Assembly: GCA_021927905.1 (NCBI GenBank)
Contig: BLLK01000074.1
Location: forward strand, 682,001-746,000
Length of the DNA stretch: 64,000 bases
Direction of reading: 5' to 3'
Source of the DNA: Chaetoceros tenuissimus
Taxonomy: Eukaryota > Bacillariophyta > Thalassiosirophyceae > Chaetocerotales > Chaetocerotaceae
The notes under the pieces were generated by a model. The model saw only the letters and a list, made by a program, of their open reading frames with translations. It was not told the DNA's origin and ran no database searches. Every line of letters starts with the position of its first letter. Positions within the stretch are counted from its first letter, which is position 1. Both the position numbers and the translations under genes were made by a program. This document shows positions 23,918 through 46,107 of this stretch, piece by piece.

Positions 23918-25147
23918 CTACCATGGCTCCAATTGTTTCATAGATCCAGATTTTACATTGTCAATATATTGTTTACATGTCAAAGACTGCTTGATTCCTT
24001 TTGTCTTGAGGTCTTTGTTGCTTCTATAGTTGACCTTTTCCCAATGTTCCATTCCACTTTCAATATGTATTCGTTCACCTCTGGTAATATTCAAAGTAGC
24101 ATTGAACGGATGAGGTACGATATCGTCATAACCAATTTTGTTCCCTACAAATTGCCTTCCAGCTTGTTTGCCATTCCATAGCTTGATGACTTGCTTATTC
24201 TCCATTCCAACCATGACTTCATCATCTTTGTTCAATGTATCCAGGATATCTTTGGTAGCACTACCAATCTTTAGCATTTGCTTGACAGCATCATCTCGAG
24301 ACAAACCTTTTGAATTCAAAAAGTGAAAATACCCTTCTTTCAGAGCATAAGGCCCCGTCACAAAAACAACTTCAATCCTCCATAAAGTTTGCAGCTTCAT
24401 CAAATTATCAATAATCTTATGCATAGTCAAGTATAAAATCGGATGATGTTTTTCAATCGCTATGAACCATTGGGAAGGTCTATCCATAAAGTCAGTTAAG
24501 AACCAAGCTGATACATCATTCCGTATAACTTTTTGATTCATTTTCGGTCTTGGCCAATTGTCTATATCACTGTAGATGCCTCCATATTTATATAAAAGTA
24601 GTATCCGCCAAACGTCTATTCTCATAGCACCTTTGAATAAAACACAAATTAACGCATCTTGTAGTAAAGGAAATTCATTCCATTCTTGTGATAGTAATTT
24701 TTCAACGGCTGTATCATCATGAAAAAATATTGAATATTGAGGTAATGTATTGGTCCATTTTTGAATCGTTCTATAAATATCTTGTGGTATACATCTCGAT
24801 GGCATTGTAAAGTGTAATATTTTGGGTATACGATCTTTAGGATCAAAGTTATTTCTTCGTATAATGTTTTGAAATGGAACAAGAGGAGGGGGACATGTCA
24901 GATCTTTGGCATTTGCTCCTCCTGATATTTCATCGAGTTCATCCAATAGTTTGTTGTATTCATATGGCTGTTTGGGAATAATTTTTCCATCTTCTTTTGT
25001 TTGAATGCGATGTTTTATTTCATGAATGTCATGATTTTTGGAAATCAAGTTATGCATCAGTACAGAACCAAGAAGGAACCAAAGAATCGTCACTCCAATG
25101 AATGTATTCACTACACATGTCTTTTTCACAAGTGCTTTCTTTTTCAT
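23918..25147 (-). CDS. Och1-like type II membrane glycosyltransferase, copy A
   Basis: Protein of 409 residues. It has a short basic cytosolic end and one membrane anchor (about 12-32), then a luminal sugar-transferase domain of the 'glycosyltransferase sugar-binding region containing DXD' type (as in Och1). The signature is YKYGGIYSDIDNW with DID at 194-196, preceded by IPKILHFTMPSRC and GAMRIDVWR. It probably uses a nucleotide sugar and Mn2+ in the Golgi; the acceptor is unknown. It is a close paralogue of the gene at 27460-28839, with the same strand and start region, but lacks about 50 residues of charged stalk. Its stop lies 102 bp from the DOCK stop, tail to tail. No intron is needed. 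Confidence 0.85.
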   Translation of the reverse strand: MKKKALVKKTCVVNTFIGVTILWFLLGSVLMHNLISKNHDIHEIKHRIQTKEDGKIIPKQPYEYNKLLDELDEISGGANAKDLTCPPPLVPFQNIIRRNNFDPKDRIPKILHFTMPSRCIPQDIYRTIQKWTNTLPQYSIFFHDDTAVEKLLSQEWNEFPLLQDALICVLFKGAMRIDVWRILLLYKYGGIYSDIDNWPRPKMNQKVIRNDVSAWFLTDFMDRPSQWFIAIEKHHPILYLTMHKIIDNLMKLQTLWRIEVVFVTGPYALKEGYFHFLNSKGLSRDDAVKQMLKIGSATKDILDTLNKDDEVMVGMENKQVIKLWNGKQAGRQFVGNKIGYDDIVPHPFNATLNITRGERIHIESGMEHWEKVNYRSNKDLKTKGIKQSLTCKQYIDNVKSGSMKQLEPW

Positions 25148-25290
25148 TCTTTCTTATATGTATTTGAGAGATGCAAATATTCAAAGAAAGTATGCAAATA
25201 CCAGATACGAGTAGATAGATAGATGCTCACTTTTATCGCTGAAGACACATATATCACACTAATTTAGAGACATGAAATAAGTGCAAATTG
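25148..25290 (-). repeat. Promoter region shared by both glycosyltransferase genes (copy A)
   Basis: The region directly upstream of copy A matches 28840-29065 upstream of copy B: 'ATGCAAATACCAGATAC', 'AAGTAGATAGATA'-type sequence and 'ATCGCTGAAGACAC'. It lacks the ~100-bp segment seen in copy B. The rest of the gap up to 25508 is plain AT-rich DNA holding the ATG4 promoter. Confidence 0.75.
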
Positions 25291-27459: not shown

Positions 27460-28839
27460 TTATATAAGCTCGACCGGCTTCATCTTTCCAGTCTTTACAT
27501 TGTCAATGTACTGTCTACAAGTCAATTTGATTTTGATACCCTTTTCCTTCATATCGAATTTGCTATGATAACTAACTTTTCGCCAGTGTATGATTCCGCT
27601 TTCAAGATCTATTCTTTCACCTCTGGTAACATTCAAAGTAGAATTGAATGGATGCGGAACAATGTCTTCATAGCCAATCTTGTTTCCAACAAATTGTCGG
27701 TAATCTATTCTTCCATTCCACATTTTAATGATCTTTTTGTCTTCCATTCCAGTCCAAACTTCATTATCTTTAAATTGTTCATTCATTTCATCTGTTGGAT
27801 TCCCAGATTCAATCATTTTCTTTGCCGCTTCAGCTCTTGAAAGTCCTTTTCCATTCAAAAAAGCAAAATAAGCATTCCATAAAGCCCACGGACCAGTAAT
27901 TTTGACCGTTTGTATTCTCCATAGACTTGGTAACCATAGTAAATTATCAATGATTTTATGAATCGTCAAAAACATGATTGGATGATTTTTCTCAATCGCT
28001 ATAAACCACTGCGACGCGTGATCATTATAATCCGTCAAGAACCATGCGGATAAATCTGTGCGAATTGCTTCTGGCTTCATCTTCGGTCTTGGCCAGTTAT
28101 CGATATCAGAATATATCCCGCCATATTTGTACATGAGTAATATTCTCCATATATCTATACGCATCGCCCCTTTGTACATGACACATATGAGTGCATCTTG
28201 CAATAAAGGAAAGTCTTTCCATTCTTGTGATAGCAGTTTCGCCACGGCTGCATCGTCGTGAAAGAAAATGGAATATGGTTTGAGCTCTTTATGCCATCTT
28301 TGAAGCGTCCGTGAAATATCTTGTGGTACACATCTCGATGGCATTGTAAAGTGTAATATTTTGGGTATACGATCTTGATGATCAAAGTTATTTCTTCGTA
28401 TAATGTTTTGAAATGGAACAAGAGGAGGAGGACAAGTCAGATCTTTGGCAGTTGCTCCTCCTGATATTTCATCAAGTTCATCTAATAGTTTGTTGTAATC
28501 TTTTTCCTTTTGTTCCAGGGTTCTCTCATCATTTTCATATTCTATTGGCTCGTATGCACTCTTATCAAACGCCAGGTTTTGAAACTTATCTTTTTCTTCA
28601 TTGAGTTGCTGCTTCTCTAGCCGCACTTGAGAAGGATCAACTTGCTGCTCTTGTGGCGTCTTTAAATGTTTCTGCTGCTTGCTATGATTCTGACGAATGC
28701 GATGTTTAATTTCATGAATGTCATGATTTTTGGAAATCAAGTTGTGCATCAGTACAGACCCAAGAAGGAACCAAAGAATCGTCGCTCCAATGAATGTATT
28801 CACTACACATGACTTTTTTACAAGAGATTTCTTTGCCAT
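27460..28839 (-). CDS. Och1-like type II membrane glycosyltransferase, copy B
   Basis: Protein of 459 residues, paralogous over its whole length to copy A at 23918-25147. It has the same anchor (VVNTFIGATILWFLLGSVLM), IPKILHFTMPSRC, and YKYGGIYSDIDNW with the DxD motif. The luminal stalk is longer and Gln/Lys/Glu-rich (about 50-115), possibly coiled coil. Both copies keep all visible catalytic motifs, so both may be active. Position and orientation show a local duplication that now brackets ATG4. Confidence 0.87.
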   Translation of the reverse strand: MAKKSLVKKSCVVNTFIGATILWFLLGSVLMHNLISKNHDIHEIKHRIRQNHSKQQKHLKTPQEQQVDPSQVRLEKQQLNEEKDKFQNLAFDKSAYEPIEYENDERTLEQKEKDYNKLLDELDEISGGATAKDLTCPPPLVPFQNIIRRNNFDHQDRIPKILHFTMPSRCVPQDISRTLQRWHKELKPYSIFFHDDAAVAKLLSQEWKDFPLLQDALICVMYKGAMRIDIWRILLMYKYGGIYSDIDNWPRPKMKPEAIRTDLSAWFLTDYNDHASQWFIAIEKNHPIMFLTIHKIIDNLLWLPSLWRIQTVKITGPWALWNAYFAFLNGKGLSRAEAAKKMIESGNPTDEMNEQFKDNEVWTGMEDKKIIKMWNGRIDYRQFVGNKIGYEDIVPHPFNSTLNVTRGERIDLESGIIHWRKVSYHSKFDMKEKGIKIKLTCRQYIDNVKTGKMKPVELI

Positions 28840-29354
28840 TTTTATATATGCTTCTTGAGAGGTGCATGTATTCTAAGAAATTATGCAAATACCAGATACA
28901 AGTAGATAGATATATGCTCTAGATGCTTATTTTCTTTTGAATGGTGTTGAATAAAAGTTGCAGAGAACAATAGATGCTTATTTTCTTTTGAAAGGCGTTT
29001 TGAGCTTCGAAGCTGCGAAAAATGACTTTCTATCGCTGAAGACACGTATTTCATACTAATTTAGATCTTTTACTGACTAAATGTCGTAGACATCGAAGGG
29101 GGCTGACTATGTGCCACCCCTGTGGCAGCGATCAGGTATCGCATCATTTTCGTTTCAATTTTTTTGAATAGAAAAAGAGGGAGTGTAATCCTATAAAATT
29201 CAAATATTTCTATTGAATGAACAAGTATATTTACAATTGATCTACCACCTTGTTTCACAATAATTACTGAACATGAGGTAGTAGAAAGCTCGCCAACAAA
29301 CTACGCCAATACAAAAGCAAAGAAATAAGAAAGTCAGTTGTTACTACTACTTGG
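28840..29354. repeat. Promoter region of glycosyltransferase copy B with internal repeat
   Basis: Upstream region homologous to 25148-25290 but carrying an extra ~100 bp. In it 'AGATGCTTATTTTCTTTTGA' occurs twice (near 28921 and 28973). The rest up to 29354 is AT-rich; the open frame at 29070-29258 is not supported as a gene. Confidence 0.7.
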
Positions 29355-30711
29355 TTAAGAATCTTCCTCAGTATTTTCATCCCTCCGCTCAGAATATTCA
29401 ATTTCATCATTTGATATGATATCTGTAGTGTTTCGCTTCCGTTTCTGTCTATTGGAAATGTTATCACTATCACTACTTCTATTAGTACTCCTACTCTCTT
29501 CCCCCACTACTACGGGAACAGCCACTCTTGACCAAGCATCCAATACAGATGGATGCCGACGTAGCAAATAATAACTTCTCTCTAAATCAGCATCCTCTCC
29601 TGCCGCCATTGCTGCAAATGGATACAGTGTTGTTATTGGGTCCTTTGTTCGTATCTGGTTATCACTAAGAGTAGCAAACAGAAATTCACTATTATTCATT
29701 GCTTTGGGTCCAGCGGCTAATACAGCCTGATGAAGAGATCTATTCTCATGATCTTTCAATTTGTACGCCCATGGAAACTTTTGCGTAAATATCATTTTAT
29801 ATTGGGGAGCTTTGGTGAGTACATGATGTAATATAGGATAGTTGCAAGCTGGTGTAAATATTCGATGTAACATATTCAAGATATTCTCTTGACCAAGTGT
29901 TTGAATTATATAATCCAATACTGTGACATATTCTTCGCGTGTTGGTAAAAACAGCAATCCTCCGATTTTTGGAAAATACTGAAATCCAGATTCCAAAATT
30001 ATTTCAAGTACATCGGGTGGTATAATGCGAGTGATTCTGGCATCAAATGCAAGTAATGCATCTGGATCTAAACTTGCCAAATAATGAAACCTCTCCCTAC
30101 ACCCTGTATACTTGGTAGCACAATCCAAAAGGTATTGGTCAAGAACATCATTCTTATGCAGTAGCTTCAGTTGTTCCAACTCTTTCAAGACTTGTACTTT
30201 TATCGAATCATTCCCGGGTATCATACAAAGTATTTTCAAAGCAATCAGTTCTTCTTCATATCTTTGTTGATTGGAGTGTATTGGTTCAACATTTATATTT
30301 CTACCTCTTGCATCTCTTGGGGCTAATTTTAACAATCCACCCCTTGCATGCTCTCCTCCAACATTGTATTTGACACCTTCTTGAGCAAGAAGTGGTACAT
30401 ATTTCAGTGCTGCCTTCTGAACAATGATCATCTATTATAACTGCAGTTTGAATCGGGATTCTATCTTCACTTTCATAATTTCTATAAGACAAGACGGACG
30501 GAAATTTCTGTACTACCTTTCGTAATGATTCTATTGAAGGCTTGTGTTCATTAATTCTATGAAGAGATTTGCCAAACTCATTCAGTATCATTCGATGCGC
30601 TTGATCGAGTATGTCTAGTATTTCATCTCGACATTCCTCGTCTTTCCATTCCTCTTGGAAATAAATATCTTTTATAAAGTCAAGATTGCTTTGAAACGTT
30701 GAAATGTTCAT
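29355..30711 (-). pseudogene. Ankyrin-like diatom-family gene broken by one frameshift
   Basis: Two overlapping frames belong to one gene. The 5' frame (30711 to about 30400) starts MNISTFQSNLDF and reaches RIPIQTAVIIDD. The 3' frame (about 30431-29355) picks up as LKYVPLLAQEGVKYNVGGEH and continues to a Ser/Arg/Asp-rich tail. From memory, in relatives a 'PIQ(S/T)AV' segment leads directly into 'YVPLLA.EG...GVGGE..RGGLL', so a one-base shift near 30395-30431 separates the halves. About 450 residues in all, with helical repeats later (SLHQAVLAAG, TLYPFAAMAAG, DLERSYYLLRRHP) that look ankyrin-like. Function unknown. Only one break is seen, so a sequencing error or programmed frameshift is as likely as true decay. 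Confidence 0.6.
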
Positions 30712-31164
30712 GTTATATGATACTTGTCTTAATGTTAATGTGAGGAGTGAGGAATAGATTGCTCTTGCCTTTGAGTGCTATTGCGACTAGATATGGTAGT
30801 GCTGCGGAAGGTTGCTGTAACTTGCGCTGAGGTACGCAGTCCTGGAAAAAGGGGAAGGAAAACATCCATAAAGAGAATTCTCACGGGGTTGTTCCTGTTT
30901 CTTATATGAAATAAGTACATTATACGACTTTCGACAATAGCCAATACTTATTCGATAAAATATTATAGCTGTTTCTACTAGCTTTTTTGCTTCTCTTCCA
31001 AAACTGTATGAACAATTTTAAGATCACCAATAGATGTGAAAAACAGATCTGAAGTAAAGAGGTTGACCTAGTTCAAATAAGAGTATGGCAAGGTTTATGA
31101 GATTGGACTGACCTTCCTTTCGATTATCTTTACGCACAAACAAAGCTCTAATAAATTAAAATAT
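30712..31164. other. Intergenic, no gene seen
   Basis: Upstream of the ankyrin-like gene. The frame 30735-30944 (minus) has no recognisable content. The right end borders the duplicated oxidase promoter. Confidence 0.4.
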
Positions 31165-31703
31165 GGAGACACCTATCAAGTTTTGTAAGTATCCTTCTAT
31201 AGCTTTGATCAAAACCTATTAGTTTCATGACGACTAGTTCGAAAAGAATATTTACGTACGTACTAAATCGTAGATGTTGTATCGGAATAATTTTTCCGAT
31301 ATTTTCAATGAAAATACATTTATGTAATAATGCCAAGAGCTTCTCTTAGATGAGTACAAATGAAAGAGATACTGGGTACATAATTTATCAAATCTATTCT
31401 TGTATAGTTTATGAAAATTGAGAGAGAATATATGGCAGGAACATTATTGAAATCATAGAACAACAAAGAAAGACAATGTCAAAGCAAGCAAGGAACACCG
31501 AGGAATAAAGGAATGTCGATGACGCCATGCTGACGTCGCAAATGTTGATGGTATCTTTCTCTGCTTTTCAAAAACATATCTGGGGTGCGTGGGACGAGTC
31601 GACGAGTCTTCACATCATAAATTTTCAAAACAGAATACTAAATCATGAAGCTTTCCGTTCCTCTTTTCCTCGGCCTTGTAGCATCTACGACTACATTTGC
31701 ACC
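31165..31703 (+). repeat. Second copy of the plastid oxidase (PTOX) promoter and signal-peptide start
   Basis: Matches 38082-38604 in the same orientation: CTATAGCTTTGATCAAAACC, AACACCGAGGAATAAAGGAA, GACGCCATGCTGACGTCGCA and AATCATGAAGCTTTCCGTTC are shared. The match runs into the first 20 codons ([10 protein letters not shown]...TFAP) and stops sharply after TTTGCACC at 31703. Similarity seems to continue a little left of the element end (GAGACAC..TATCAA against GAGACAAC..CATTAA before the element at 37272), which suggests this copy shows the site before that element inserted. Confidence 0.88.
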
Positions 31704-31785
31704 GATGATCCAAAAGAATACATTCATCGTGTGGGAAGAACTGCAAGAGGAGCTACTGGGAAAGGAAGAGCTCTGCTATTCTTGA
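31645..31785 (+). CDS. Short chimeric open frame: PTOX signal peptide plus out-of-frame helicase sequence
   Basis: From the copied PTOX start codon a frame of 46 codons runs [20 protein letters not shown] and then 26 residues read from helicase DNA in a different frame, ending TGA at 31783. The first 20 residues keep a signal peptide with an 'AxxFAP'-like cleavage motif, so a small secreted or plastid-routed peptide is possible if transcribed. No known function; it may simply be a by-product of the fusion. Confidence 0.3.
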
Positions 31786-32220
31786 CTCCAGAAGAAACTG
31801 GTTTCTTGAGGTATTTGAAAGCTGCAAAGGTTTCTTTTGAATGAGTATGAATTTCCTACTAATAAAGTGGCCAATGTACAGTCTCAACTTCAGAGATTGA
31901 TTGAAAAGAATTATTACTTGAATAAAGCTGCAAGGGATGCTTATAGATCTTATCTATTGGCATATGCTTCTCATTCACATCGGGACATTTTTAATGTTGG
32001 AAACTTGGATTTGCAAGCAGTTGGACTTGCGTTTGGATTTACGGTTCCTCCAAGAGTGGATCTACCAAGTATCTCTACCAAAAAGGACGGAAAGAGACAC
32101 AATGGACAGAAATTGAAGGGGAGTAAAAAGAGTAAAGGATTGAGTAGTGGTCATGCTTTTTCAGCATCGAATCCATATGGTAAGAGAGAAAAGGGAGATA
32201 AGAGGCAGTTTTCTCATTAG
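31704..32220 (+). pseudogene. HAS1: 3' fragment of a HAS1/DDX18-type DEAD-box RNA helicase
   Basis: C-terminal part of a nucleolar helicase that acts in large- and small-subunit ribosome biogenesis. Frame one shows [16 protein letters not shown] (motif [10 protein letters not shown]) and [19 protein letters not shown]. One extra base near 31842 shifts the frame, and [40 protein letters not shown] and [10 protein letters not shown] follow up to the basic tail and stop. Motifs Q, I, Ia, Ib, II (DEAD), III, IV and V are absent. It joins directly to the copied PTOX start at 31703/31704. It cannot be an active helicase; the parent gene must lie elsewhere. Confidence 0.88.
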
Positions 32221-32595
32221 AGAATTTCATGGATAGAATTCATTGGTTGGAATTGACACAGTTCAAATTGAAATAGTTACAAATGTTGCTTAAAATCTTC
32301 TACATAGGAACTATTCAACTTAGTATATTCGACCAGACAAGATCTTCAAAAGTAAAATTTGTTACAGTGTAGATTCATGAGTGTACCAAATTCTTTCGAC
32401 GTTTTGCCCTTCCTCTTTCTTCCGTCGCCAGCATCTTTCCCTAGGAAAAAATAAAGGAAGAGAGAGCCTTTATTCATTCATGTTCACGTTCTTATTGTTA
32501 GGGTTGTTCTTGTTGTTGATGCAATAGATAAGCGTAACTAAAAATATACTTTGTAAATTATGTCCGTTATCATATGTTAGGTTTAGCCAACCCTA
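32221..32595. other. Intergenic between convergent features
   Basis: Probable 3' flanks of the helicase relic and of SGNH-like gene 1. Nothing coding is seen. Confidence 0.4.
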
Positions 32596-34107
32596 CTAAT
32601 CCACAGTAATCTTTGTTACTTCAGTCAAGAGATGTCTGACTTTTGTTGTTGTAGCATCAGCACACAATACTTTAGCAATTTCAAGACGTGCAAAATCTGA
32701 TTCTTTTTGCAAAAGAGTGATTTTCACTGGTGGCTTCCAAGTAGTAGGAGAAAATTTCAAAAGTCGAAATGGACTAGGGGCTGTTGACTGCATCACACTT
32801 TGAAAACGCTTCTCATCCTCTGCTCCCTCTACCAAACTCTGAACTGAAAAGGAAACTGTTTCGTTTGTCCATGAATGCATCACCCATGCAATCTTTATGT
32901 GTTGATACTGTCCTTGACAACCTAGTACAACACTTGATGAAACATCATTGGAATTGAGAGTCACTTTATCCTCTCGACCCGAGAAAGGTGAACTCATTTC
33001 AAATCCATGATTCTCCAAGACTAAAGCTGGCAATTTTCTCTCTTCAATTTGATCGGCTTTGCCCCACTCACCAAAGCATACAGATGATTGCTCTTCTTCT
33101 TGCCGTAGTATTACAGAGTTGGCATTCGAAAAACTTTCTTCCGTAATCATTTTAGGAAAAACAACATTTTTCAAATGATGGACAATCTGTTCAGCTATGT
33201 ATTGATGATATGGTGGCTGACCATGCTGCATTGCTCTTGGATGTGGGGTACCGCATGAAGAACGTAAAGTTTTCATTTCCTTTGTTCCAGTTCTATCTGC
33301 AATGGCTTGCTGAGCCATTTCTGAAGTACATTCCTTGCCTTCAGCAAAAGCATAACACTCTTTAGGTATGTATGCTCCTGACAAGGGGTTAGGACTAGTA
33401 TAATTATAGAATGAAGGGACTAGACATGGCCATACATTCTTGTCTTGCTCCGAGAGGTTAATTACACTAAATTTGCTCTTGTCCTTAAGACGCTCATATG
33501 CTGCAATAGTTGCACTGTATGTTGATGGAGGAGTAAGCCAGGACCATAAATCAAGAATGATAACATGTTTGGCACGTTGAGCGAGGAGTTCATACCATGC
33601 GTCAAGGTTTGAAGTATCGGACTCGTTGATTCTATACTCGGAAATGATGATGTCTGCAGGATCAATGCCACACAATAGATGCTGTGATACACCAGCAGCA
33701 GGAATTGCCAAATTGGAAGTCTCAACCCCAAGAGCTTTTCCAACAAGAGCACTGAATCTCTTATTTTTATGATCAAGAAAATCGTACCCAGCTGAGATAC
33801 TTCCTCCATAAAAGTCAATTTTAAGAGGTGTACCATCTTCTTTTGCAGATGTCATGAGGTCTTGTTGGTCTTGTTCAAAGCACTGACTACATCCATTGCA
33901 ATGCTTGAAAGTACATTTCATATCCCAAGGATCGGAATGAGGAATACACCATCCTTGACATTCGCTACTTGCTGTTACTTCTTCTTCATTTTCTTTAGAA
34001 GAAAGAAATCTCGAGAGTTTAGAATCTTCGTTGTAAATGTATCCTACACATAACAAAAGAAATGCAATGATGAGAATTTTTGCTGTTTTCTTTTTAGAAA
34101 CAGTCAT
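32596..34107 (-). CDS. Membrane-anchored Cys-rich SGNH-like protein, copy 1
   Basis: Protein of 503 residues with a short basic start and one membrane helix (about 9-24). A Cys-rich segment follows (C..WC...DPWDMKCTFKHCNGC..C, about 50-76), of a type I associate with diatom secreted proteins. Next is a domain with features of SGNH/GDSL hydrolases: YGGSISAG with Ser103 as candidate nucleophile, GVSQHLLCG, ILDLWSWL, and a late YHQYIAEQIVHHL with a candidate His. The C-terminal ~130 residues form a beta-rich region. It probably acts outside the cell or in the secretory lumen on an ester or glycan, but the substrate is unknown. It is head to head with its paralogue at 35508-37043; the first 33 residues and the last ~20 bp before the ATG are almost identical. 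Confidence 0.65.
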   Translation of the reverse strand: MTVSKKKTAKILIIAFLLLCVGYIYNEDSKLSRFLSSKENEEEVTASSECQGWCIPHSDPWDMKCTFKHCNGCSQCFEQDQQDLMTSAKEDGTPLKIDFYGGSISAGYDFLDHKNKRFSALVGKALGVETSNLAIPAAGVSQHLLCGIDPADIIISEYRINESDTSNLDAWYELLAQRAKHVIILDLWSWLTPPSTYSATIAAYERLKDKSKFSVINLSEQDKNVWPCLVPSFYNYTSPNPLSGAYIPKECYAFAEGKECTSEMAQQAIADRTGTKEMKTLRSSCGTPHPRAMQHGQPPYHQYIAEQIVHHLKNVVFPKMITEESFSNANSVILRQEEEQSSVCFGEWGKADQIEERKLPALVLENHGFEMSSPFSGREDKVTLNSNDVSSSVVLGCQGQYQHIKIAWVMHSWTNETVSFSVQSLVEGAEDEKRFQSVMQSTAPSPFRLLKFSPTTWKPPVKITLLQKESDFARLEIAKVLCADATTTKVRHLLTEVTKITVD

Positions 34108-34446
34108 GATGTTTGTTTACTTTTGCTTGCTATATGGAGATGAAATTGAAAATTGCAAGCAATTGCATAGTTGTTAGAACAAAGTGATACTATCTGACAA
34201 AGGTACTTGGAATTTGCTTTATGGTTCACGCTCTGATTCGAGAGTGAAAATATTACTCCGAGAATCCTAAGTCATTCAACTATGACTACCAAGGCAAAGT
34301 CGGCAAAGCACGCCTACAACATTGGATACTGAGCCATGAAATCATAACAATCACAATTCAGAGACTATATGGTATATTATCATACAATTTATATATGCAA
34401 AGCCTTTTACAAACTGAAAGGATTACAAGCTGAAAGGAGTTTCTTT
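34108..34446 (-). promoter_or_regulatory. Upstream region of SGNH-like copy 1
   Basis: The bases just before the ATG (GCAAGCAAAAGTAAAC...AACATC) and 'CTCGGAGTAATAT' further up recur upstream of copy 2, in inverted orientation, so promoter sequence was copied with the gene. No other feature is seen. Confidence 0.5.
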
Positions 34447-35289
34447 TTAACAGCGGTGTCACGTAAGAATACCGATTTTGTGCTGCAAATGAAAAATCTA
34501 ATTTCGGTTCCAATCGACTAACAATAAAGTAGTAATACCTTTCTAAAAGATCTTTTTCTGCTTGTTTAAAAACTGCACTCGAAAAAATCTCGGAAGCTTT
34601 CTGAGTCGAGAAATTAAGCTATTCGTAAGACGAGATCGTCACTTTTTCTAATATTTGGTGTTGAATTGCAACCATATTTCTTGCCACAAAATGAGTTGTC
34701 GATTCCAACAAGTTACATACTGTTCATTTGAATAGTTTTCGAAAGATTCGTGTAATTACATTAGTTGTAGGTTGACTTTAGAATAATTTATTCGAGTGTA
34801 TAGTGGACATGGTCGATTCATGATTCGAAAATGGCTCAAATTTCACTCGATTTCACAAGACCAATGACGGAAATTGTGCCATTGTTGGTACAGTCTGTAC
34901 GTACGATAAAGAATCAAAGAAAACATGGTTGAGAATTCTATTGCGATATCAATATTATAATGATTCTATGGCTAAACTAATTACATATTCATTCAGACAA
35001 ACACTTCAAGAATATATTTGTAACTTCTCAGAATCGACAACTCATTTTGTGGCGAGAAATATGGTTTCGATTAAACTGTGAGATAACCGAAGTAAGCTAC
35101 TTTGGAGGCTAATTTCTCGACTCAGAAAGCTTCCGAGATTTTTTCGAGTGCAGTTTTTAAACAAGCGTAAAAAGATCTTTTAGAAAGGTATTACTACTTT
35201 ATTGTCAGTCGATTGGAGCCGAAATTAGATTTTTCATTTGCAGCAAAAACTCACAAAAAATTTGTATTCTTACGTGACACCGCTGTTAA
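34447..35289. mobile_element. Foldback-type non-autonomous element 1, TTAA ends
   Basis: The left end reads TTAACAGCGGTGTCACGTAA and the right end is its reverse complement (TTACGTGACACCGCTGTTAA). Inner arms match for roughly 250-300 bp on each side (AAATCTAATTTCGG, AATCGACT, ACCTTTCTAAAAGATC, GAAGCTTTCTGAGTCGAGAA). The centre is unpaired and has no transposase. Ends and arms match element 2 at 37272-38081. TTAA at both borders fits a TTAA target duplication as in piggyBac-type transposition. It sits between two head-to-head SGNH-like genes. Confidence 0.88.
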
Positions 35290-35507
35290 TTATGGCAGCA
35301 TCTTCTTTTCTAAAAAATAGAGAGCGACTTATACTTTCCTTATCTCGGAGTAATATCTCAATGACTTGTGACATTTTCAATCTCAACTCAAAATTAGGCG
35401 GACCACAATAAAGGGAAAGTGTGCTTTGCTCTATTCATACCTAGTAAAATCCTCATAATATTTACTATTCACTTGTTTCTCGTGGCAAGCAAAAGTAAAC
35501 CAACATC
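35290..35507 (+). promoter_or_regulatory. Upstream region of SGNH-like copy 2
   Basis: Short promoter space between the element and the gene. It shares CTCGGAGTAATAT and GCAAGCAAAAGTAAACCAAC with the upstream region of copy 1. Confidence 0.5.
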
Positions 35508-37043
35508 ATGACTGTTTCTAAAAAGAAAACAGCAAAAATTCTCATCATTGCATTTCTTTTGTTGTGTGTAGGATACATTTACAACGAAGATTCTAAACTC
35601 TCGAGATTTCTTTCCTCTGAACAAGAGAAATCTTGTGACAGCTGGTGTCATCCTCATTCCGATCCCTGGGATATGAAATGTACGTTCAAGCACTGCAATG
35701 GATGTGGCCAGTGTCTCGAACAGGAAGATGACAAGCCATTGGAAGATGGTTCTTCTAATGACTTGTTGTCTGCCATCCCAACTTCTGTCAAAACAATTGA
35801 TGTATACGGAGGAAGTGTAACTCGAGGTGATCAATTCTTTGATCACGAGAATAAGAGGTTCAGTGCCTTGTTAGGAAATGTATTGGGAATTGATGTAAAG
35901 AACAAGGGAATTGCTGGCGCTGGTCCTTCCCAGAATCTCTTGTGTGGAATTTATGAAGCCGATATCATCATTTCAGAATATAGATTCAATGAGCACGATG
36001 GTAAAATTCTAGATCAATGGTACAAACTTATTGCACAAAAAGCAAAACATGTTGTAATTCTTGATCTTTGGTCGTGGTTGACTCCACCTGGCAAAAGTGC
36101 AACTTTCGAGGCATTTGAGAGAATCAAAGATAAAAGCAAATTCAGTGTACTGAATCTGGCCGAGCAGGATAAGAATGTATGGCCTTGTCTTGTGCCATCT
36201 CTATTTGACTACAGATCTCCTGAAGATTTTACATTTTGGAGCAAGATTCCAGAGGAGTGTTATGCTTATGCAGAAGGTGAGGAGTGCAATTCAGATAAAG
36301 CGAAACAAGCTATCGCTGATAGAAGTGGGACTTCTGCCATGGCATCTTTAAGATCCTCATGTAATCCCAATGAAACACCAAATCATGCGCTACATGGCAC
36401 GCCATCATATCATAAGTATGTGGCAGATCAACTTGTGCATCACTTCCAAAATGTGGTGTTCCCACAAATGAAGGCAATGGAAGATGCTACTCATGACCCA
36501 GTGATTCGACAGGGGATGGAAGAGGCAGATCATAATTCAGTATGCTTTGGAGAATGGGGAACTACCACACAGTCAGAGGAAAAGAAATTACAAGCTATTG
36601 TAATAGAAAACAATGGATTCGAAAGTAGTTCTCCTTTTTCTGGTCGAAAGGACAAGGTAACTCTCAACACCAATGTAGAAAATGCAAGTGTAGTTCTTAG
36701 TTGTCCAGAAGGATATGACGAAATGAAATTGGCATGGGTTGCTCATAATGTGAAAGAAGAGACTGTTACTTTTTCGGTTAAGAGTTTAAAGTCAGAGGTC
36801 GAGCCCTCACATCTTTCTACAAGTGAAACATCGCTTGGAGGATCTGTGGAAGGTAAAATGTTTGCTGTACGACGTGTTTTAATTTACTCACAAGAGTCGT
36901 GGCAACCACCTGTGAAAGTGACTTTATCAGGAAAGCAATCTGATTCTGCCAGGCTTGAAGTTGGCAATGTTTTATGTTCCCATCATAGTACAGATCGTCG
37001 TCTCTTGAATTCACTTTCAGACGGCCTGCTATATTTGGATTAG
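35508..37043 (+). CDS. Membrane-anchored Cys-rich SGNH-like protein, copy 2
   Basis: Protein of 511 residues, paralogous end to end with 32596-34107. It has the same anchor (KILIIAFLLLCVGYIYNEDS), the Cys-rich segment (SWCHPHSDPWDMKC...GC..C), YGGSVTRGDQF with Ser103, ILDLWSWLTPPG, and SYHKYVADQLVHHF as the candidate His region. In this copy the block around the Ser (GGSVTRG) differs from copy 1 (GGSISAG). The strong match of the first 33 residues against weaker matches later suggests gene conversion or constraint at the 5' end. It is flanked on both sides by related foldback elements. Confidence 0.65.
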   Translation: MTVSKKKTAKILIIAFLLLCVGYIYNEDSKLSRFLSSEQEKSCDSWCHPHSDPWDMKCTFKHCNGCGQCLEQEDDKPLEDGSSNDLLSAIPTSVKTIDVYGGSVTRGDQFFDHENKRFSALLGNVLGIDVKNKGIAGAGPSQNLLCGIYEADIIISEYRFNEHDGKILDQWYKLIAQKAKHVVILDLWSWLTPPGKSATFEAFERIKDKSKFSVLNLAEQDKNVWPCLVPSLFDYRSPEDFTFWSKIPEECYAYAEGEECNSDKAKQAIADRSGTSAMASLRSSCNPNETPNHALHGTPSYHKYVADQLVHHFQNVVFPQMKAMEDATHDPVIRQGMEEADHNSVCFGEWGTTTQSEEKKLQAIVIENNGFESSSPFSGRKDKVTLNTNVENASVVLSCPEGYDEMKLAWVAHNVKEETVTFSVKSLKSEVEPSHLSTSETSLGGSVEGKMFAVRRVLIYSQESWQPPVKVTLSGKQSDSARLEVGNVLCSHHSTDRRLLNSLSDGLLYLD

Positions 37044-37271
37044 CTTTTGGCATGTGCTCATCATCTACCTTGCTTTCAATTTCAGCTTAGCTCAAATATA
37101 AACCTACTTGGAAATAATAATATAATCTATTTAGCCTAGTAAAAGAGGAGTGAAAATCCAACTTCTTCCCTTTTCTCTCCCTTCAGAAGTAAGTCAATGT
37201 TAATATTTATAAGAATATTGAATATACTCAAGGGAGAGTAACTGATTTTTTGTTTATATCGAGACAACTCA

Positions 37272-38081
37272 TTAACAGTAGAGTCGTGTAAGAATACCTG
37301 ATTTTTGTGAGTTTTTACTGCAAAGTGAAAATCTAATTTTGGCTCCAATCGACATGCAATAAAATACTAATACCTTTTGAAAAGCTTTTTTACGCTTGTT
37401 TCAAAACTGTAATCAACGAGAGCGCGCATGCTTTCTGAGTTGAGAAAGTAACCTGTAAAGTAGCTTACTTCAGTTACGTCATAGTTTGGTTGCAACCATA
37501 TTTCTCCTACAAAATGAGTTGATGAACGCGAGAAGTTACAAATAAATTCTTGAAGTTATTGTGTGAATGAATATGTTATTAGTTTGACAATAGAGTGAAA
37601 GCAAGTATTTCTATCGATTGCCTCTATGGAGGGATTTTCTGACTATACCAACAATGGCACAATTTCCGTCATTGGTCTGTGAAATCGAACGAATTTGAAG
37701 CCAATTTCGAATCATGAATCGACCATGTCTTCTATACACTCAAATAAATCACTTTGAAGTCGAGCTGCAACAATTATAAGTACATAAATCTTTAGAAAAC
37801 TATTGAAATGAACATTATGTAACTTCTTGCGTTCATCAACTCATTTTGTGACGAGAAATATGGATGCGATTCAACACCAAATATTTGAAAAAGTGACGAT
37901 CTTGTCTTACGAAAAGCTAAATTTCTCAACTCGGAAAGCATGCGCGCTCTCATCGATTACAGTTTTGAAACAAGCGTAAAAAAGCTTTTAGAAAGGTATT
38001 ACTTTATTATTGCGCGTCGATTGGAGCCGAAATTAGATTTTCACTTTGCAGCACAAAAGAATGGTATTCTTACACCGTTAA
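37272..38081. mobile_element. Foldback-type non-autonomous element 2, TTAA ends
   Basis: The left end is TTAACAGTAGAGTCGTGTAA and the right end reads TTACACCGTTAA on the plus strand. Inner arms match each other and element 1: AAATCTAATTT.GGCTCCAATCGAC, AATACCTTTTGAAAAGC, GCATGCTTTCTGAGTTGAGA against its inverse, and CAAAATGAGTTGATGAACGC against its inverse. The central block ACCAACAATGGCACAATTTC is the reverse complement of sequence in the centre of element 1, so the cores are in opposite orientation. No transposase frame. The copy of the flank at 31165 appears to lack the insertion. Confidence 0.87.
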
Positions 38082-38545
38082 GTTTTGTAAGTATTCTTCT
38101 ATAGCTTTGATCAAAACCTATTAGTACCAAGCCTAGTTAAAAGAACTGTTGTACGTACTCGATTGTACGTACGTACAAGTTGTATCGGAATAGTTTTTCC
38201 GATATTTTCAATTGAAAATACATTTTGCATTTACATACAAAAAGCTTCTCTTAGATGAGTACAAATGAAAGATCTATTGTATGCATAATTCAAAAGCCAT
38301 TTCTTTATATAGTTTCTAATTATGAGAGAGAATGCATGGTAGGAACACTATTGAAATCGTAGAACAACAAAGAAAGACAATGTCAAAGCAAGGAACACCG
38401 AGGAATAAAGGAATGTCGATGACGCCATGCTGACGTCGCAAACGTTGATGGTATCTTTCTCTGCTTTTCAAAAAACATATCCGGTGGTGCGTGCGACTAG
38501 CGACGAGCCTTGACATCATAAATTTTCAAAACAGAATACTAAATC
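38082..38545 (+). promoter_or_regulatory. PTOX promoter with TGACGC/TGACGT pair
   Basis: Region from the element end to the PTOX ATG. It holds TGACGC at 38420-38425 and TGACGT at 38431-38436. These six-base sequences match the CO2/cAMP-responsive elements described for the Phaeodactylum carbonic anhydrase promoter. Both are kept in the copy at 31520-31536. A GTACGTAC-rich palindromic stretch lies near 38152-38180. Function here is inferred, and single TGACGT sites are common by chance. Confidence 0.4.
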
Positions 38546-39583
38546 ATGAAGCTTTCCGTTCCTCTTTTCCTCAGCCTTTTAGCATCTGCTTCTACATTTG
38601 CACCATCTACTCCTCTACAGATCAACTCGGCAGCTATGAGATCATCTACTGCGTTTGCTAGCAGCAGCACTTCTCTCAAAGTCGCATCAGCACCACCACC
38701 AGTGCAAACTCCTACACCAAACAAGGAACCAGAAATGATTGATGAGAATGTTTACAAGTTTAATAAAATCTTGATTGACACTGTTTACGATATCATCTGT
38801 TTCTTTTATCCAGTAAAGGGAACCAAGAGAGACTTTGCGAGATTCTATGTTTTGGAGACTGTTGCAAGAGTGTAAGTTTGTTGCTTTTGCTGCCCTAGCT
38901 TTTCAACCATTGGGCTTTTCACAAAGTATATGCATCATGCAAATCTTTATCATCTGTGTATCTGACTATAACTCTTGCTACTCTTCTACAGACCATACTT
39001 TGCGTACTTGAGTGTTATGCACTTGAGAGAAACATTTGGAGATCGTGAACTCGGTGATAAGATGAGAACTCACTATGCAGAAGCAGATAACGAACTTCAT
39101 CATTTACTCATTATGGAATCTCTTGGAGGAAATGAAAACGTCATTGATCGTACCCTTGCACAAACCATGGCATTCTTCTACTATTGGTATGTAACCGTAG
39201 TGTACTTCTTCTCTCCACCGGTAGCATACCATCTCTCGGAATTGATTGAAGATCATGCATTTGATACTTATTCCGGATATCTTGAAAATCACGGTGAAAT
39301 GCTCAAGACGAAACCTGTACCGGCTATTGCTACAAAATATTACGTAGAGGATAATCCATTCTTGTTTGACTTGTTTTGTACTGTAAAGAATAAGGATGAG
39401 GATGGAAACTTTAGTGCGAGAAGACCTCAACTTGATAATTTGTATGATGTTTTCGTCAATGTTAGAGATGATGAGAAGGAGCATTGGAAGACTCTTTGTA
39501 ATCTTGTACAGTATGGTGATATGCAGGGAGTTGAGAATAAGAATGTGGTTGGAACCAAAGCAAAGCCTGCTGAGCCAAACTAA
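38546..39583 (+). CDS. PTOX: Plastid terminal oxidase (PTOX/IMMUTANS-type alternative oxidase), two exons
   Basis: Exons 38546-38871 and 38992-39583 give 305 residues. The 120-bp intron runs GTAAGT...TTCTACAG and splits the Val codon of ARVPYF. PTOX is a di-iron plastoquinol:oxygen oxidase of the thylakoid, a safety valve in photosynthesis and carotenoid synthesis. Visible: signal peptide then ASTFAP (plastid motif with Phe), FYVLETVARVPYFAYLSVMH with ligand Glu104, DNELHHLLIMESLGG with Glu143 and His146, LIEDHAFDTYSGYLENH, and DDEKEHWKTL with the last ExxH. All six expected ligands seem present. Its promoter and first 20 codons occur again at 31165-31703. Confidence 0.92.
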
Positions 39584-39758
39584 GTTTAGTCGGGAATGGA
39601 TAGCTTTGACTGGAAACATTATGAAATTAGTCGAATGTATTATGATGACAAGATGTATGAAGAATAGTAGCGTAAATAACATATCGTAATTGCATATTTA
39701 TGAAAAAGATTCATGCTTTTATTTGAATGCAAGAGTTGCATAGTATGTGGAATTCACT

Positions 39759-40958
39759 TCAATTCTCTGACACTTCTCTGAATGTGTTCAAGGTGCTAAG
39801 AAAGAACCTTTTACATGCTCTTTCAAATTTTCTTTCCAAATGATCATTCCTCGAAGTGTCTTTATTCTTCTTTTTCTTGCCAAATGCTTTGAAAACTGGG
39901 CATATGTGCTTATGACCAAGACCCCTTGTTCTAGTTTGTTCTGAGTAGAAGTACGTTTGTCGCTGGCAATCTATGCAGCAGTAGCAAACAGCTCGACATC
40001 CTTGGCAATACAAGAGAGATTCCAATTGATTCTTGCTTCTTCTTTCTTCACAAGCGTAGCATTTATACTTGGAATGGTGTATCTTGAAAGCAAGGTACTT
40101 TTGCAGACATTCGATTGCAAAATTGAACTTCTCGGTGCATTTTTCATTCCACTGAAAACCATTGCCTATATAGATGGAATAGAAGTTGATGAGTGAAAGA
40201 GACAAGCACCCAGCGCCTGTTTCGTCATTATCAATGAGATCTTGGATTTGTTTCTGGAAATTCATGTGGAAATCAGGTCCGTTTCCATTGCTAAAGCCAT
40301 TACTGATTATAGCAAATCTGCAGCAATCAACAAAGTAAAAGAATTTGAACATCTCTCCCTGCCTAACAATGAGCTTATTATGGTGCGTCACCATAAGAGA
40401 CGAAAGATCTTTCACCATGTCAAACTGTCGCAGTCTGTTTAATTCGCCAAGTGCTCCAGTGATGAATACTAAATAAAGTTGGGCCCATTTGCCGAATCCT
40501 TCATTGACCTTGATTAGTTCATGAACTTGTTTCGAAACACGGGTAACTCGAGCAGCACTGAAGCCTTCGATTCGAAGTAAAAACAAATCAATGCACGATA
40601 AGTAAAAGTTTGTCATTGAATTGTTTTTCAACTCGATCGCTTCTTTACAAAGATTGAGTGCCCTTGAATAATCTTGAGCTTTCATTTGGGTTAAAAGCGA
40701 AAAATTCAGAATTATAACTACCTGAGTGTCATAAAATCGTAATCTATTCACTGCTATAAAGTCTGCTTTGATATTTTTTATACACTGAAGGTGTTTCAAA
40801 GAGACTTCGTAACTCTCATGTAATCTCCCTTCAAGTCTAAGTTTTGACTGTTGTTCTTTTAACAATAGAGCTGTACTTTCGTGTATGGAGATGCGCCTCT
40901 GATGAATTTGTAAAGGCTTGTTGCCCTGTTTTCTTTTCTTTCTGCTGCTCTTTCCCAT
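39759..40958 (-). CDS. MYND-type zinc-finger protein 1
   Basis: Protein of 399 residues starting MGKSSRKKRKQGN. I chose this ATG over a longer frame to 41132 because the paralogues also start MGKKSKAKK and MGKTKKPKK. The N-terminal ~300 residues are helical and TPR-like. The C-terminal finger reads CYACEE...LLYCQGCRAVCYCCIDCQRQT...H...C, the C-x2-C, C-x2-C, C-x3-C, H-x3-C pattern of MYND. MYND fingers bind proline-rich partner proteins, often in transcription control. The basic start may be a nuclear signal. It is the most divergent member of the local family at 44.6-49.4 kb and is tail to tail with PTOX (175 bp). Confidence 0.8.
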   Translation of the reverse strand: MGKSSRKKRKQGNKPLQIHQRRISIHESTALLLKEQQSKLRLEGRLHESYEVSLKHLQCIKNIKADFIAVNRLRFYDTQVVIILNFSLLTQMKAQDYSRALNLCKEAIELKNNSMTNFYLSCIDLFLLRIEGFSAARVTRVSKQVHELIKVNEGFGKWAQLYLVFITGALGELNRLRQFDMVKDLSSLMVTHHNKLIVRQGEMFKFFYFVDCCRFAIISNGFSNGNGPDFHMNFQKQIQDLIDNDETGAGCLSLSLINFYSIYIGNGFQWNEKCTEKFNFAIECLQKYLAFKIHHSKYKCYACEERRSKNQLESLLYCQGCRAVCYCCIDCQRQTYFYSEQTRTRGLGHKHICPVFKAFGKKKKNKDTSRNDHLERKFERACKRFFLSTLNTFREVSEN

Positions 40959-41035
40959 CTGAACAAAAGTGTAAGTTTCTACTCCAAAGGAGACAATAAC
41001 GAATCGATTGCGAGAAAGTTTGAAAAAAAATCGAA

Positions 41036-41420
41036 TTTTCGAATTTAGTCTACAAGTCGCTCGAGAAAAATCCATCTCATTTTCTTCAAAATTCTTAGTC
41101 ACAATATCAATAACTGTTCCCTTGTATATCATAATGTCGATGTAATCTTTTATGAATAAAGTGCATCAAGAAAGGTACCGTAAAATAATAATTATAAAAT
41201 TGCAAAAAAACCTCTTCAGTGTATAACGGTAGTCCAACTGCTTTTGCACTTGTCACAATATTGTGGATTTTTTTCTATTTCATTGCCCACTTATTGGGAG
41301 CTCTAATTATCGGTAAGCCTTTCATATGAAAATTAATATCGTAGAGGAGATTGGCTATGGATATAAGGTTGACTACATAAATTAATGAATTTTTAGGTGA
41401 TAGTCATTGGAAGCATGACG
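41036..41420. repeat. MYND1 upstream region, copy 1 of a direct repeat
   Basis: Matches 43320-43660 in the same orientation: TTAGTCTACAAGT, GTGTATAACGGTA, AACTGCTTTTGC, TCTATTTCATTG and ATTGGGAG. It covers the 5' flank of MYND1, between it and the divergent receptor gene. A TGACGTCA palindrome lies at 41416-41423. Confidence 0.75.
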
Positions 41421-41715
41421 TCATCATATATCCGACTAGGAATAATGCAATTCATTCCAACAAAACACATTACTAACGAGAGTGAAGTTTCATAACGCAG
41501 TGATGTGAAAAATGCACCCTAGACCTCTGAAAAAATAAACATATACAACTCCTACACATGTGATAGTGATTACATAATTAGTTTTTCGTCTTAAAAAAGT
41601 AAAGAGCGACGCGTTAGCAAGATCATTGTACATCCATTAATTCAACACACAAATACATCACCAGCCAAGGCTAGGAACCCCAAGCTAGCTATTCTTTTAA
41701 TTCGTCTTCATTATC

Positions 41716-43275
41716 ATGTCGACAGCAGTAAACAGTGAAGATTTCAGTGTCAGTCGGTGGCAAGCAAATGCAACGGCACAGATTGTTAGTGCTTCCATTT
41801 CTTTTCTAGCATCGCTTATTATCGTGGCTAGTACAAGCAAGATCTTCTTTTCTCTACAAAGAAACAGTAAACACGACGAAGCAAATGAAGTTGTTAACAA
41901 TAAGAAGACGAGTCCATATCGCCGCATCATCTTTCTGATTAGTGCTTCTGATATTTTGTATTCTTTGGCATTCATCACCGGGCCGTTCATGGCTAAGAAG
42001 ACAAACCCTCAAGCTCTATGGGCAGTCAGTGACTCTAATATCGCATGTGCAGTGAATGGATTTTTCTTCACTGTTGGAGCAACTGCAAGTCTATTGTACT
42101 ATGCTTCTTTGTGTTACTTTTATTACTGCAAAATATCCAAGCAGATGAATGATGAGGAATTCAAGAGGAGGTATGAAAAGAAAATTCACATCATGATTGG
42201 AGTCATTTGCATAGCTAGTTCATGTGTCAGTTTTGCATTAAACACATTACACACCTATCCTACAGGGACCTTCTGCAGTAATACAACTACTCCTGCAGGA
42301 TGCAATCAACAGCCAGAGATATATGGGGAATGTGATCTAAAAATCAAGGTCTATGTCTCGTATTTTACATATTTCAATTTGCTGGTGATTTCGACATATT
42401 CCATAGTTGTCATGATCTACAGCATGATTCGTCTTGTCTATTCTGTCTCGAATAAAGATAGAATCTATGGCGATCTACCTGCAAATCCTACCGATGAACA
42501 ATTGCACATATATACTTTAAGAAAGCAGCTACTGAGGGAAACAATGTCTCAAGCAATCATGTACACTGGAAGTTGGTTTATCTGCCAAAGTGCATTAATT
42601 GCAGTGGCATTTTATTTTTTTAGAGGTGGTCCCCTTGAAAAGTTCCCTCCAGTAGTTTGTTTTGCTCTAGTACCACTGAACGGTGCCTTCAATGTTTTCA
42701 TCTATACAAGACCGGCAGTTCGACATGTGAGACGTGTGGATCCTAGCATTTCTCGTCTTCGAGCACTTTATATGGTCCTTAAAGCAGGTGGTGAAGCGCC
42801 AAAGATGGATCAAAGTTCAACCTCGACGAATCATCAACTACAGCAGCAGCAGCCACTCCCAGAAAAGAGTAGTCGAGAACCATTTCAATGTTATTACTAT
42901 GATGGAAATGATCTCTGTCTAAGTTTGGACAGTTTGAATTATGTAAGTTCTGTTGATTTGAGAGTTATGATTGGTCAAGATTCAATGGAGAGAGTTGCTG
43001 TTACGACTTGGTCTGGACAAAATCTTTCAAATACCACCATTACTTCGAATTGTAAAATTCGTGGTCTTGAGGGTGTTTCTTTTGGTGAAGACGTGAAAGA
43101 CTGCAGTCATTATTATGATCCTCGGTCAAACTTTGGTGGCAAAGATGGAATCGACACTTCAAACACCAATATGAATGTTGCTACGAATAGTAACATTGAT
43201 TGTTTTGAGGATTCACCTTTTGCCGAAGATGGGAATGAATATAATCATTATGATGTCAATACGCTTGAAAGATGA
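41716..43275 (+). CDS. GPCR-like seven-helix receptor (cAMP-receptor-like)
   Basis: Single-exon protein of 519 residues. Seven hydrophobic segments lie within about residues 20-335, starting with IVSASISFLASLIIVASTS. The pattern fits the class E / slime-mould cAMP-receptor-like group: 'RIIFLISASDILYSLAF' in helix 2, a Cys-rich loop before helix 3, and 'FVNVFIYTRP'-like 'FNVFIYTRPAVRHVRR' at the end of helix 7. Extracellular loop 2 has several Cys (TFCSNTTTPAGCNQQ...GEC) and an N-glycosylation site. The cytosolic tail is ~180 residues, Ser/Thr/Asn-rich. It would signal through heterotrimeric G proteins; the ligand is unknown. It lies between two copies of a MYND upstream region. Confidence 0.75.
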   Translation: MSTAVNSEDFSVSRWQANATAQIVSASISFLASLIIVASTSKIFFSLQRNSKHDEANEVVNNKKTSPYRRIIFLISASDILYSLAFITGPFMAKKTNPQALWAVSDSNIACAVNGFFFTVGATASLLYYASLCYFYYCKISKQMNDEEFKRRYEKKIHIMIGVICIASSCVSFALNTLHTYPTGTFCSNTTTPAGCNQQPEIYGECDLKIKVYVSYFTYFNLLVISTYSIVVMIYSMIRLVYSVSNKDRIYGDLPANPTDEQLHIYTLRKQLLRETMSQAIMYTGSWFICQSALIAVAFYFFRGGPLEKFPPVVCFALVPLNGAFNVFIYTRPAVRHVRRVDPSISRLRALYMVLKAGGEAPKMDQSSTSTNHQLQQQQPLPEKSSREPFQCYYYDGNDLCLSLDSLNYVSSVDLRVMIGQDSMERVAVTTWSGQNLSNTTITSNCKIRGLEGVSFGEDVKDCSHYYDPRSNFGGKDGIDTSNTNMNVATNSNIDCFEDSPFAEDGNEYNHYDVNTLER

Positions 43276-43319
43276 TCTGGTGGGATATAAGAAATTATTC
43301 AGCTGTTAGTAATATGAAT

Positions 43320-43660
43320 CATTAGTCTACAAGTTGTGAAAAATCTATCTCTTTCACTCTTGACGTCCTTTCATCTCATTTTTTAAACTGTAACAATTCT
43401 TATAATAAGGTCGATGTGACCTATCATGAATTTTGTAAAATTGAAAAAACTTCTTTTGTGTATAACGGTAACGAAACTGCTTTTGCCCTCATCACTAAAT
43501 AATGTTATAGAATATTTTCTATTTCATTGTCCACTGATTGGGAGTTCTAATCGTTAAGCTTTTATATGAAAGCAAATTTAGAAGAGGATATTAGCTAAAG
43601 GAAAGTATATATATAAGAGGTTGACTTTAATTGCTGAAATGTCATCATTTATTTGCATTA
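43320..43660. repeat. Copy 2 of the MYND1 upstream region
   Basis: Degenerate duplicate of 41036-41420, same orientation, downstream of the receptor gene. No MYND coding sequence is attached to it on the left side. It may be what remains of a MYND gene's 5' region after the receptor and its neighbours were rearranged. Confidence 0.75.
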
Positions 43661-44641
43661 GTGAGAACAATATCAAGTTCATGCATCTCAATTGCCTCTC
43701 TCTATTGACCGTCTGTAAGCGTCCGTTTTTCACATTCGAAAAAGTAACGAGTAACTAGACTAGCTTTCCTCACCAACCATTCAATACATGACACATATCC
43801 AACACTAAGAGTATGTACGGTGTCACTCACTTGTGCTTACACATTACCTTACTGCACATCTTACAAATAAATTTGTGATCATGATCCTTGACACATTTGT
43901 TAGCTTGTCTGTGCAATGAAGGCAGCCGATGTAAGTATATGAAGATCTCGCTCGCTTTGTTTGCGGTAGAAGACATGACTATAATGAAGAATTGTAATTG
44001 CTTAATCTTTTCAGAGCAGGAATTAGACACTCCATTCAAAAAAGGCTGAATCTTGAAACGACGAGTAGTCTCGCTCTCATCTACCGCTGCGTGTTACAAA
44101 GTAGTAAATCTTTACGATTCTTTGTTCGAAGAACTTCTGACATTTTTGCGTCTCTTTTTAGTTCAAACAATAGGTCGGCAATCTTTGAAAAGGCAGATAG
44201 ATGAAAATGTGCTCGTCAATCTCTTCTAAAAAGGAGCAAGGGAGAAATGAAAATGGGTACCTCAAAATGTTGCAGGAGTAGAATGACTTCTTACTGAATA
44301 CTTCTATTTACAATATCAGTAACAAAGTGCCAGTAGGCGAAAATCTGTTGATCGAGCTCTGAATTTTCTCATGGTAGCATTTAGAAGAAGAATTATATAG
44401 ACATCCAATTGAATGAAAGTACAGTCTATTTGATAGGTACTACGTGCGCATTCTTATTTACAAATCTAGAGCAGCTCAATGATGAGTAAAGCTACCAAAT
44501 AGGTCATTGTGAAACAAAAAATCTAAAATGTCTAAGATTAGTATGAGTAAGATAACTACGAAGTAATTCTTTTCGTCAATATTATGAAGAATGCTTTCTC
44601 ACGAATTGTGTGGTCTACAACCTCATATTCTCGTTGCGTAT
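43661..44641. other. Intergenic, one Cys-rich open frame
   Basis: Mostly non-coding. The minus-strand frame 43827-44039 ends HRQANKCVKDHDHKF followed by CKMCSKVMCKHK, which vaguely resembles a small zinc-binding tail such as that of piggyBac-type transposases. It lacks the first Cys pair and any DDE domain, so I do not call it a gene. Confidence 0.3.
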
Positions 44642-45830: not shown

Positions 45831-46107
45831 GATTAGAACCTCTGATATTGCAATTTATGAATTGGCATATGAACTTTGAATACTACTCTGATTCTATTTG
45901 GATGATACACATTGCTACATATATATACAAGTGAGAACATCTCTACATAATTATAAAAATACAAAGCGTGAAAACATCAAGAAGCCTATTTACATCCTCT
46001 GCAAAGTAAAAATGAAGCCAGTGCTAAATACTTATTGTGAAAGTAGAAATGTACGAGGTCTATGCTTAGTAGTAAAAGTGAAATACCTCTATTTTGTCTC
46101 TCTATGA
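45831..46107. other. Short intergenic stretch
   Basis: Between the mosaic pseudogene and MYND2. A weak further remnant of the N-terminal part (CAATTCATAAATTGC-like sequence near 45855) may be present. No gene. Confidence 0.35.

Follow-up and report, generated by a model that had tools for sequence, protein, structure and literature searches.

Fusion of the 5′ end of a PTOX gene with the 3′ end of a HAS1 helicase gene at the edge of a segmental duplicate with reciprocal damage in the diatom Chaetoceros tenuissimus

Here we describe a locus of Chaetoceros tenuissimus, known here from the sequence of one assembly, in which the 5′ end of a PTOX gene is fused to the 3′ end of a HAS1 helicase gene. 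The helicase part is the left edge of a segmental duplicate whose other copy lies on a second contig (C38), and the two copies carry reciprocal damage: a divergent gene pair is open on the contig of the fusion (C58) and broken on C38, whereas HAS1 is intact on C38 only. On balance, we favor as the probable history that the block was copied from C38 to C58, that both HAS1 copies were long under selection, and that reciprocal loss followed, with a late rearrangement joining PTOX to HAS1. The window analyzed, C58:682001-746000, is 64,000 nucleotides long and has a GC content of 37.8%, and the genome searched comprises 41.03 Mb in 68 contigs. For comparison, the published assembly of strain NIES-3715 has 41.0 Mb, 38.9% GC and 85 scaffolds, obtained from Nanopore and MiSeq data (PMC8613185). 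The coordinates of the features are collected in Table 1.

Table 1. Features of the fusion locus, of the duplicated block and of their surroundings; positions are those of the window unless C38 is indicated.
Feature	Position	Strand	Remarks
PTOX 5′ copy with upstream sequence, the ATG (31645), 19 codons and 2 bases	31178..31703	+	85% identity to 38080-38604
Best-kept stretch of the promoter, 84 bp with no more than 1 difference; TGACGC (31520), TGACGT (31531)	31486..31569	+	permutation P 0.0087
ORF of 46 codons that starts at the PTOX ATG and passes the join in a frame other than that of HAS1	31645..31785	+	
Junction between PTOX codon 20 and HAS1 Asp-Asp-Pro-Lys-Glu	31703..31704		one A short of a CACCA word found in both parents
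3′ end of the HAS1/DDX18 helicase gene, HRVGRTAR motif to stop	31704..32220	+	15 substitutions relative to C38 HAS1
T run of the HAS1 piece where one additional T shifts the frame by +1	31835..31838	+	from the alignment to C38 HAS1
Segmental duplicate of C38:1661886-1667213	31704..37063		~5.4 kb on C58, the transposon-like insertion counted
Open paralogue 1 of the divergent pair, 503 aa	32596..34107	-	C38 copy broken
Multicopy transposon-like element inside the C58 block	34447..35290		long inverted ends, TTAA borders
Open paralogue 2 of the divergent pair, 511 aa	35508..37043	+	on C38 frameshifted and interrupted by an insert
Insert in C38 paralogue 2, between two AGATC copies	C38:1665729-1666574		single AGATC, without insert, on C58
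Second multicopy element of the same kind	37271..38081		its right end is where the PTOX 5′ homology begins
PTOX gene, two open exons	38546..39583	+	exon limits read by eye

The PTOX part is a diverged copy of a gene present further along the window. Local alignment of 31169-31703 with 38072-38604 spans 555 columns, gaps included, of which 473 are identical (85.2%), and blastn gives 85.0% between 31178-31703 and 38080-38604. In a DNA search that skips very common words, the PTOX 5′ region has two places in the genome, this copy and PTOX itself, with the second-best place at E = 8.9e-164, far beyond chance; with two genomic places returned by that search, a dispersed repeat was ruled out. The copy retains the ATG (31645-31647), codons 1 to 19 and two bases of codon 20. 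The initial annotation, which had correctly placed the PTOX copy, the helicase tail and a join that is seen in both parent alignments, was right as to the start codon. The first 20 codons differ from those of PTOX at five sites, four of them nonsynonymous when the alignment is read by eye, which lends no support to selection on the coding part of the copy. As for PTOX itself, an AOX domain is found in its second exon, which matches 99 cyanophage records, none of them across more than 80% of the query; the five that are listed cover 50% of it at 49.5% identity and are annotated as plastoquinol terminal oxidase. Outside C58, AOX-family matches occur at four places (C36, C34 and two on C38), and a search of the genome beyond codon 20 returned no near second copy of PTOX, only one 54-bp match on C38.

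The differences between the two PTOX 5′ copies are unevenly spread, as judged from 20,000 shuffles of these differences, which gave the P value of the best-kept stretch. In both promoters TGACGC and TGACGT are spaced 11 bp apart (31520-31536 and 38420-38436), within this stretch; CGTCA was searched for in both copies and is absent from both, so that the motif stands on one strand only. A study on Phaeodactylum describes TGACGT/C as the site targeted by a bZIP factor linked to the CO2 response, and notes that genes carrying the motif on a single strand may be regulated otherwise (PMC11142338). A regulation of PTOX by CO2 is a candidate idea worth testing, suggested by these motifs. Gene conversion between the copies could also have caused the likeness in this stretch.

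The helicase part, 31704-32220, is identical to C38:1661886-1662401 at 501 of 517 columns (97%), with 15 substitutions and one inserted base. This C38 stretch is the sole near match found for the piece, the second-best place being at E = 2.7e-252, far beyond chance. The intact HAS1 gene that the initial annotation had proposed to look for is present at C38:1660731-1662401 as an open frame of 556 codons before the stop. Its product, queried as 540 residues from one codon before the first Met, holds the DEAD, Helicase_C and CTE_SPB4 domains; the best solved match is the ATP-dependent RNA helicase HAS1 (E 5.4e-209), and DDX18 is in the top five. The C58 tail is 97% identical to this full gene but lacks DEAD, the ATPase core and nearly all of Helicase_C: a domain scan of 31819-32217 finds CTE_SPB4 only, and by coordinates 31704-31818 covers only the end of Helicase_C, about its 15 last residues. 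The HRVGRTAR motif, which we take to be helicase motif VI, is complete, and the join falls just before it rather than inside it, as had been proposed. The 5′ part of HAS1 has no near second copy in the genome, where two weak matches on C54 (69% over 167 bp and 89% over 37 bp) were returned.

Position 31704 is the left edge of a block of about 5.4 kb and not of a copy of 0.5 kb, to which the C38 stretch had at first been limited. C58 31700-33990, 35485-36432 and 36425-37063 are collinear with C38:1661881-1664220, 1664784-1665731 and 1666575-1667213 (blastn, and the best 40 of 59 candidates of a second search), and this overlooked homology to about 37063 spans several genes and includes noncoding DNA. 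A retrocopy of HAS1 is ruled out, since the homology passes the transcript end and extends across the 3′ flank to cover two neighboring genes; the loss of introns is uninformative in this respect because the parent HAS1 is one open frame. An alternate allele is not favored either, the dS of 0.136 in the HAS1 piece standing against the heterozygosity of 1.56% reported for C. tenuissimus (PMC8613185).

These two genes run in opposite directions on C58 and are 57% identical. Neither has a Pfam match at 0.001, and paralogue 1 shows a weak GDSL-lipase resemblance (E 0.041, below the cut-off). N-terminal relatives of the pair lie at several nearby places on C38, with others on C14, C16, C17, C34 and C54, and this C38 cluster suggests C38 as the source and a duplication directed towards C58. 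On C38 both genes are damaged. Paralogue 1 has a frameshift near codon 255 and, in two matched pieces, one TGA, one TAG and one TAA; the damage is agreed by tblastn and a six-frame search. Stops placed at codons 378, 400 and 440 by a gappy nucleotide alignment (gaps near the 5′ end and codon 440) could partly be alignment effects. Paralogue 2 has a frameshift near codon 182 and is interrupted at codon 307 by an insert of about 846 bp, unlike the two elements of the window.

The upstream flank, 28900-31190, was considered as a part of the duplication and rejected: its other matches, confined to about 29515-30735, are those of a large and diverged gene family, and 30750-31177 has no second match among the best 40 of 48 candidates. 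A member of a large diverged gene family, with many matches on C13 and C27, occupies 29355-30777 in two overlapping frames. It is preceded by tandem related minus-strand frames at 23918-25153 and 27460-28872, the second with a sugar-binding glycosyltransferase domain, and a repeated array with repeat families D1-D3 at 39736-48858 contains at least three minus-strand frames with a common Cys-rich stretch. The two transposon-like elements measure about 800-840 bp, and over two dozen other genomic places are listed for them. The start of the strong PTOX 5′ homology (38078-38081 and 31176-31179) falls, almost to the base, on the TTAA border of the element at 37271-38081, a coincidence of the two limits.

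The divergence of the HAS1 piece bears on its past. Over 172 codons, stop included, it differs from C38 HAS1 by 14 synonymous substitutions and one nonsynonymous, 12 of the 15 being transitions, and the copy, whose dating had been proposed, can thereby be placed at dS 0.136 (dN 0.0025), a date resting on a small number of substitutions (n = 15). For a piece evolving neutrally from birth beside a conserved parent, 54-64% of the changes are expected to be nonsynonymous, against 1 of 15 observed; the binomial P of at most 1 of 15 goes from 6.2e-6 at kappa 1 to 1.8e-4 at kappa 5, and the neutral share of the history of the piece is at most 19-29% (95% bound). Furthermore, it has one indel in 517 columns versus eight in the 437 columns of its 3′ flank. 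The 14:1 synonymous bias suggests that the C58 HAS1 copy was probably once full-length and under selection for most of the time since the duplication, the truncating fusion being late. The neighbors are less constrained (dN/dS of 0.38 in paralogue 1; 0.29 and 0.40 in two parts of paralogue 2), and their dS (0.18; 0.18 and 0.08, respectively) is uneven along the block, so that its history may be mosaic. In noncoding DNA, the PTOX 5′ copies show 35 differences in 446 positions and the HAS1 3′ flank 38 in 368. A second alignment, made at different gap costs, counts 41 substitutions in each, together with 15 indels over 485 columns in the PTOX copies and 8 over 437 in the flank. A similar age of both is plausible.

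In the history that we favor, C58 would have received from C38 a block of HAS1 and two neighbors, which now sits there between two PTOX 5′ copies. Both HAS1 copies would have stayed full-length, with purifying selection acting on them through most of the period that followed. C38 would then have lost the gene pair through frameshifts, stops and an insertion while retaining HAS1, and C58 would have retained the pair and lost HAS1 by a rearrangement, most simply a deletion, that joined PTOX codon 20 to the HAS1 tail. The outcome would be a relic: a PTOX-type promoter, an ORF of 46 residues resembling a signal peptide, and a helicase tail unread from that start. This history supposes a full-length C58 HAS1 and a full-length second PTOX, neither of which was found in the genome, and it must also be said that one-step copying from a diverged, since-lost HAS1 would give the same substitution counts.

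Such copying belongs to an account that we consider unlikely, a templated insertion in which repair at PTOX copied the C38 stretch into codon 20 and returned upstream, doubling about 525 bp of PTOX and leaving HAS1 truncated from birth. A single event would explain why PTOX 5′ copies flank the C38 block, and the noncoding divergence of both parts is similar; nevertheless, more than half of the changes in a piece dead from birth should be nonsynonymous, and to rescue the account the donor must already have diverged from the present C38 HAS1. The promoter capture and fusion “in one step” of the initial annotation meets the same 14:1 divergence, barring recent copying from such a donor, and overlooks that the HAS1 piece edges a larger duplication.

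It seems very improbable that the locus is an artefact of assembly, whether by a wrong joining of two loci or by an erroneous base in the T run. Should the assembly be the published one, built from Nanopore and MiSeq data (PMC8613185), errors in T runs could have persisted. The join is present in the one assembly examined. Against an artefact, the C38-like block extends over 5.4 kb, and the flanks of the join are 85% and 97% identical to their parents, which indicates that neither is a stray copy of a parent locus.

At the join, the bases of the PTOX side end in TTTGCACC (31703), where PTOX continues with ATCTACT and the parent HAS1 has CCACCA preceding GATGATCC. Strict microhomology is absent as the bases stand, but both parents share the word CACCA, of which the join lacks one A; a join retaining this A would be in frame and would lead the PTOX signal peptide into the HAS1 tail. 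As it is, the frame is lost at the join and again at the T run. The peptide of 46 residues, out of the HAS1 frame, had been exactly described, and the later frameshift had been noted; the ORF of the peptide stops at 31785, and its product is predicted, as judged by eye, to carry a plastid-type signal peptide. Another ORF, from 31527, enters the HAS1 frame and ends at 31844, just beyond the extra T. What had been presented as the birth of a gene rather resembles its death, and the fusion locus is best read as a pseudogene, a deletion scar.

A working fusion, in which the promoter and signal of PTOX would serve a selected product with the HAS1 C-terminal extension, is highly doubtful. The near absence of amino-acid changes in the HAS1 piece and the conserved promoter stretch would suit such a product, and the ATG frame is the HAS1 frame after the extra T. 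Among introns of 50-249 bp, nine GT-AG pairs would bridge the two, but they are formal only and were disregarded as evidence. Against this stand the end of the ATG frame after 46 codons, the three stops between the two frames, the parent HAS1 being one open frame throughout this stretch, and the want of an ATPase core. There is only a slim chance that the deletion first gave an in-frame gene, with the HAS1 C-terminal extension plastid-bound under the PTOX promoter, which was selected for a while and closed by two small indels, a new gene just after its death.

The reciprocal loss of duplicated genes is known as divergent resolution, and the likeness here lies in two copies of a block, each retaining what the other lost; unlike that between species, it is found within one assembly, between two contigs, and one of the losses would have made a fusion junction. 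In turn, chimeric genes are known at the breakpoints of segmental duplications or deletions, and the locus resembles them in placing the promoter and first codons of one gene on the tail of another. The C58 fusion, described here from its sequence, differs in being out of frame and was probably made after the duplication and not by it.

The case offers a stepwise example of a duplicated block pruned at both of its sites in a diatom. It is also a warning that what appears in a sequence as the fusion of a promoter to a gene can be the scar of a deletion. Furthermore, if another strain holds a different resolution, crosses could give offspring without one of the genes.
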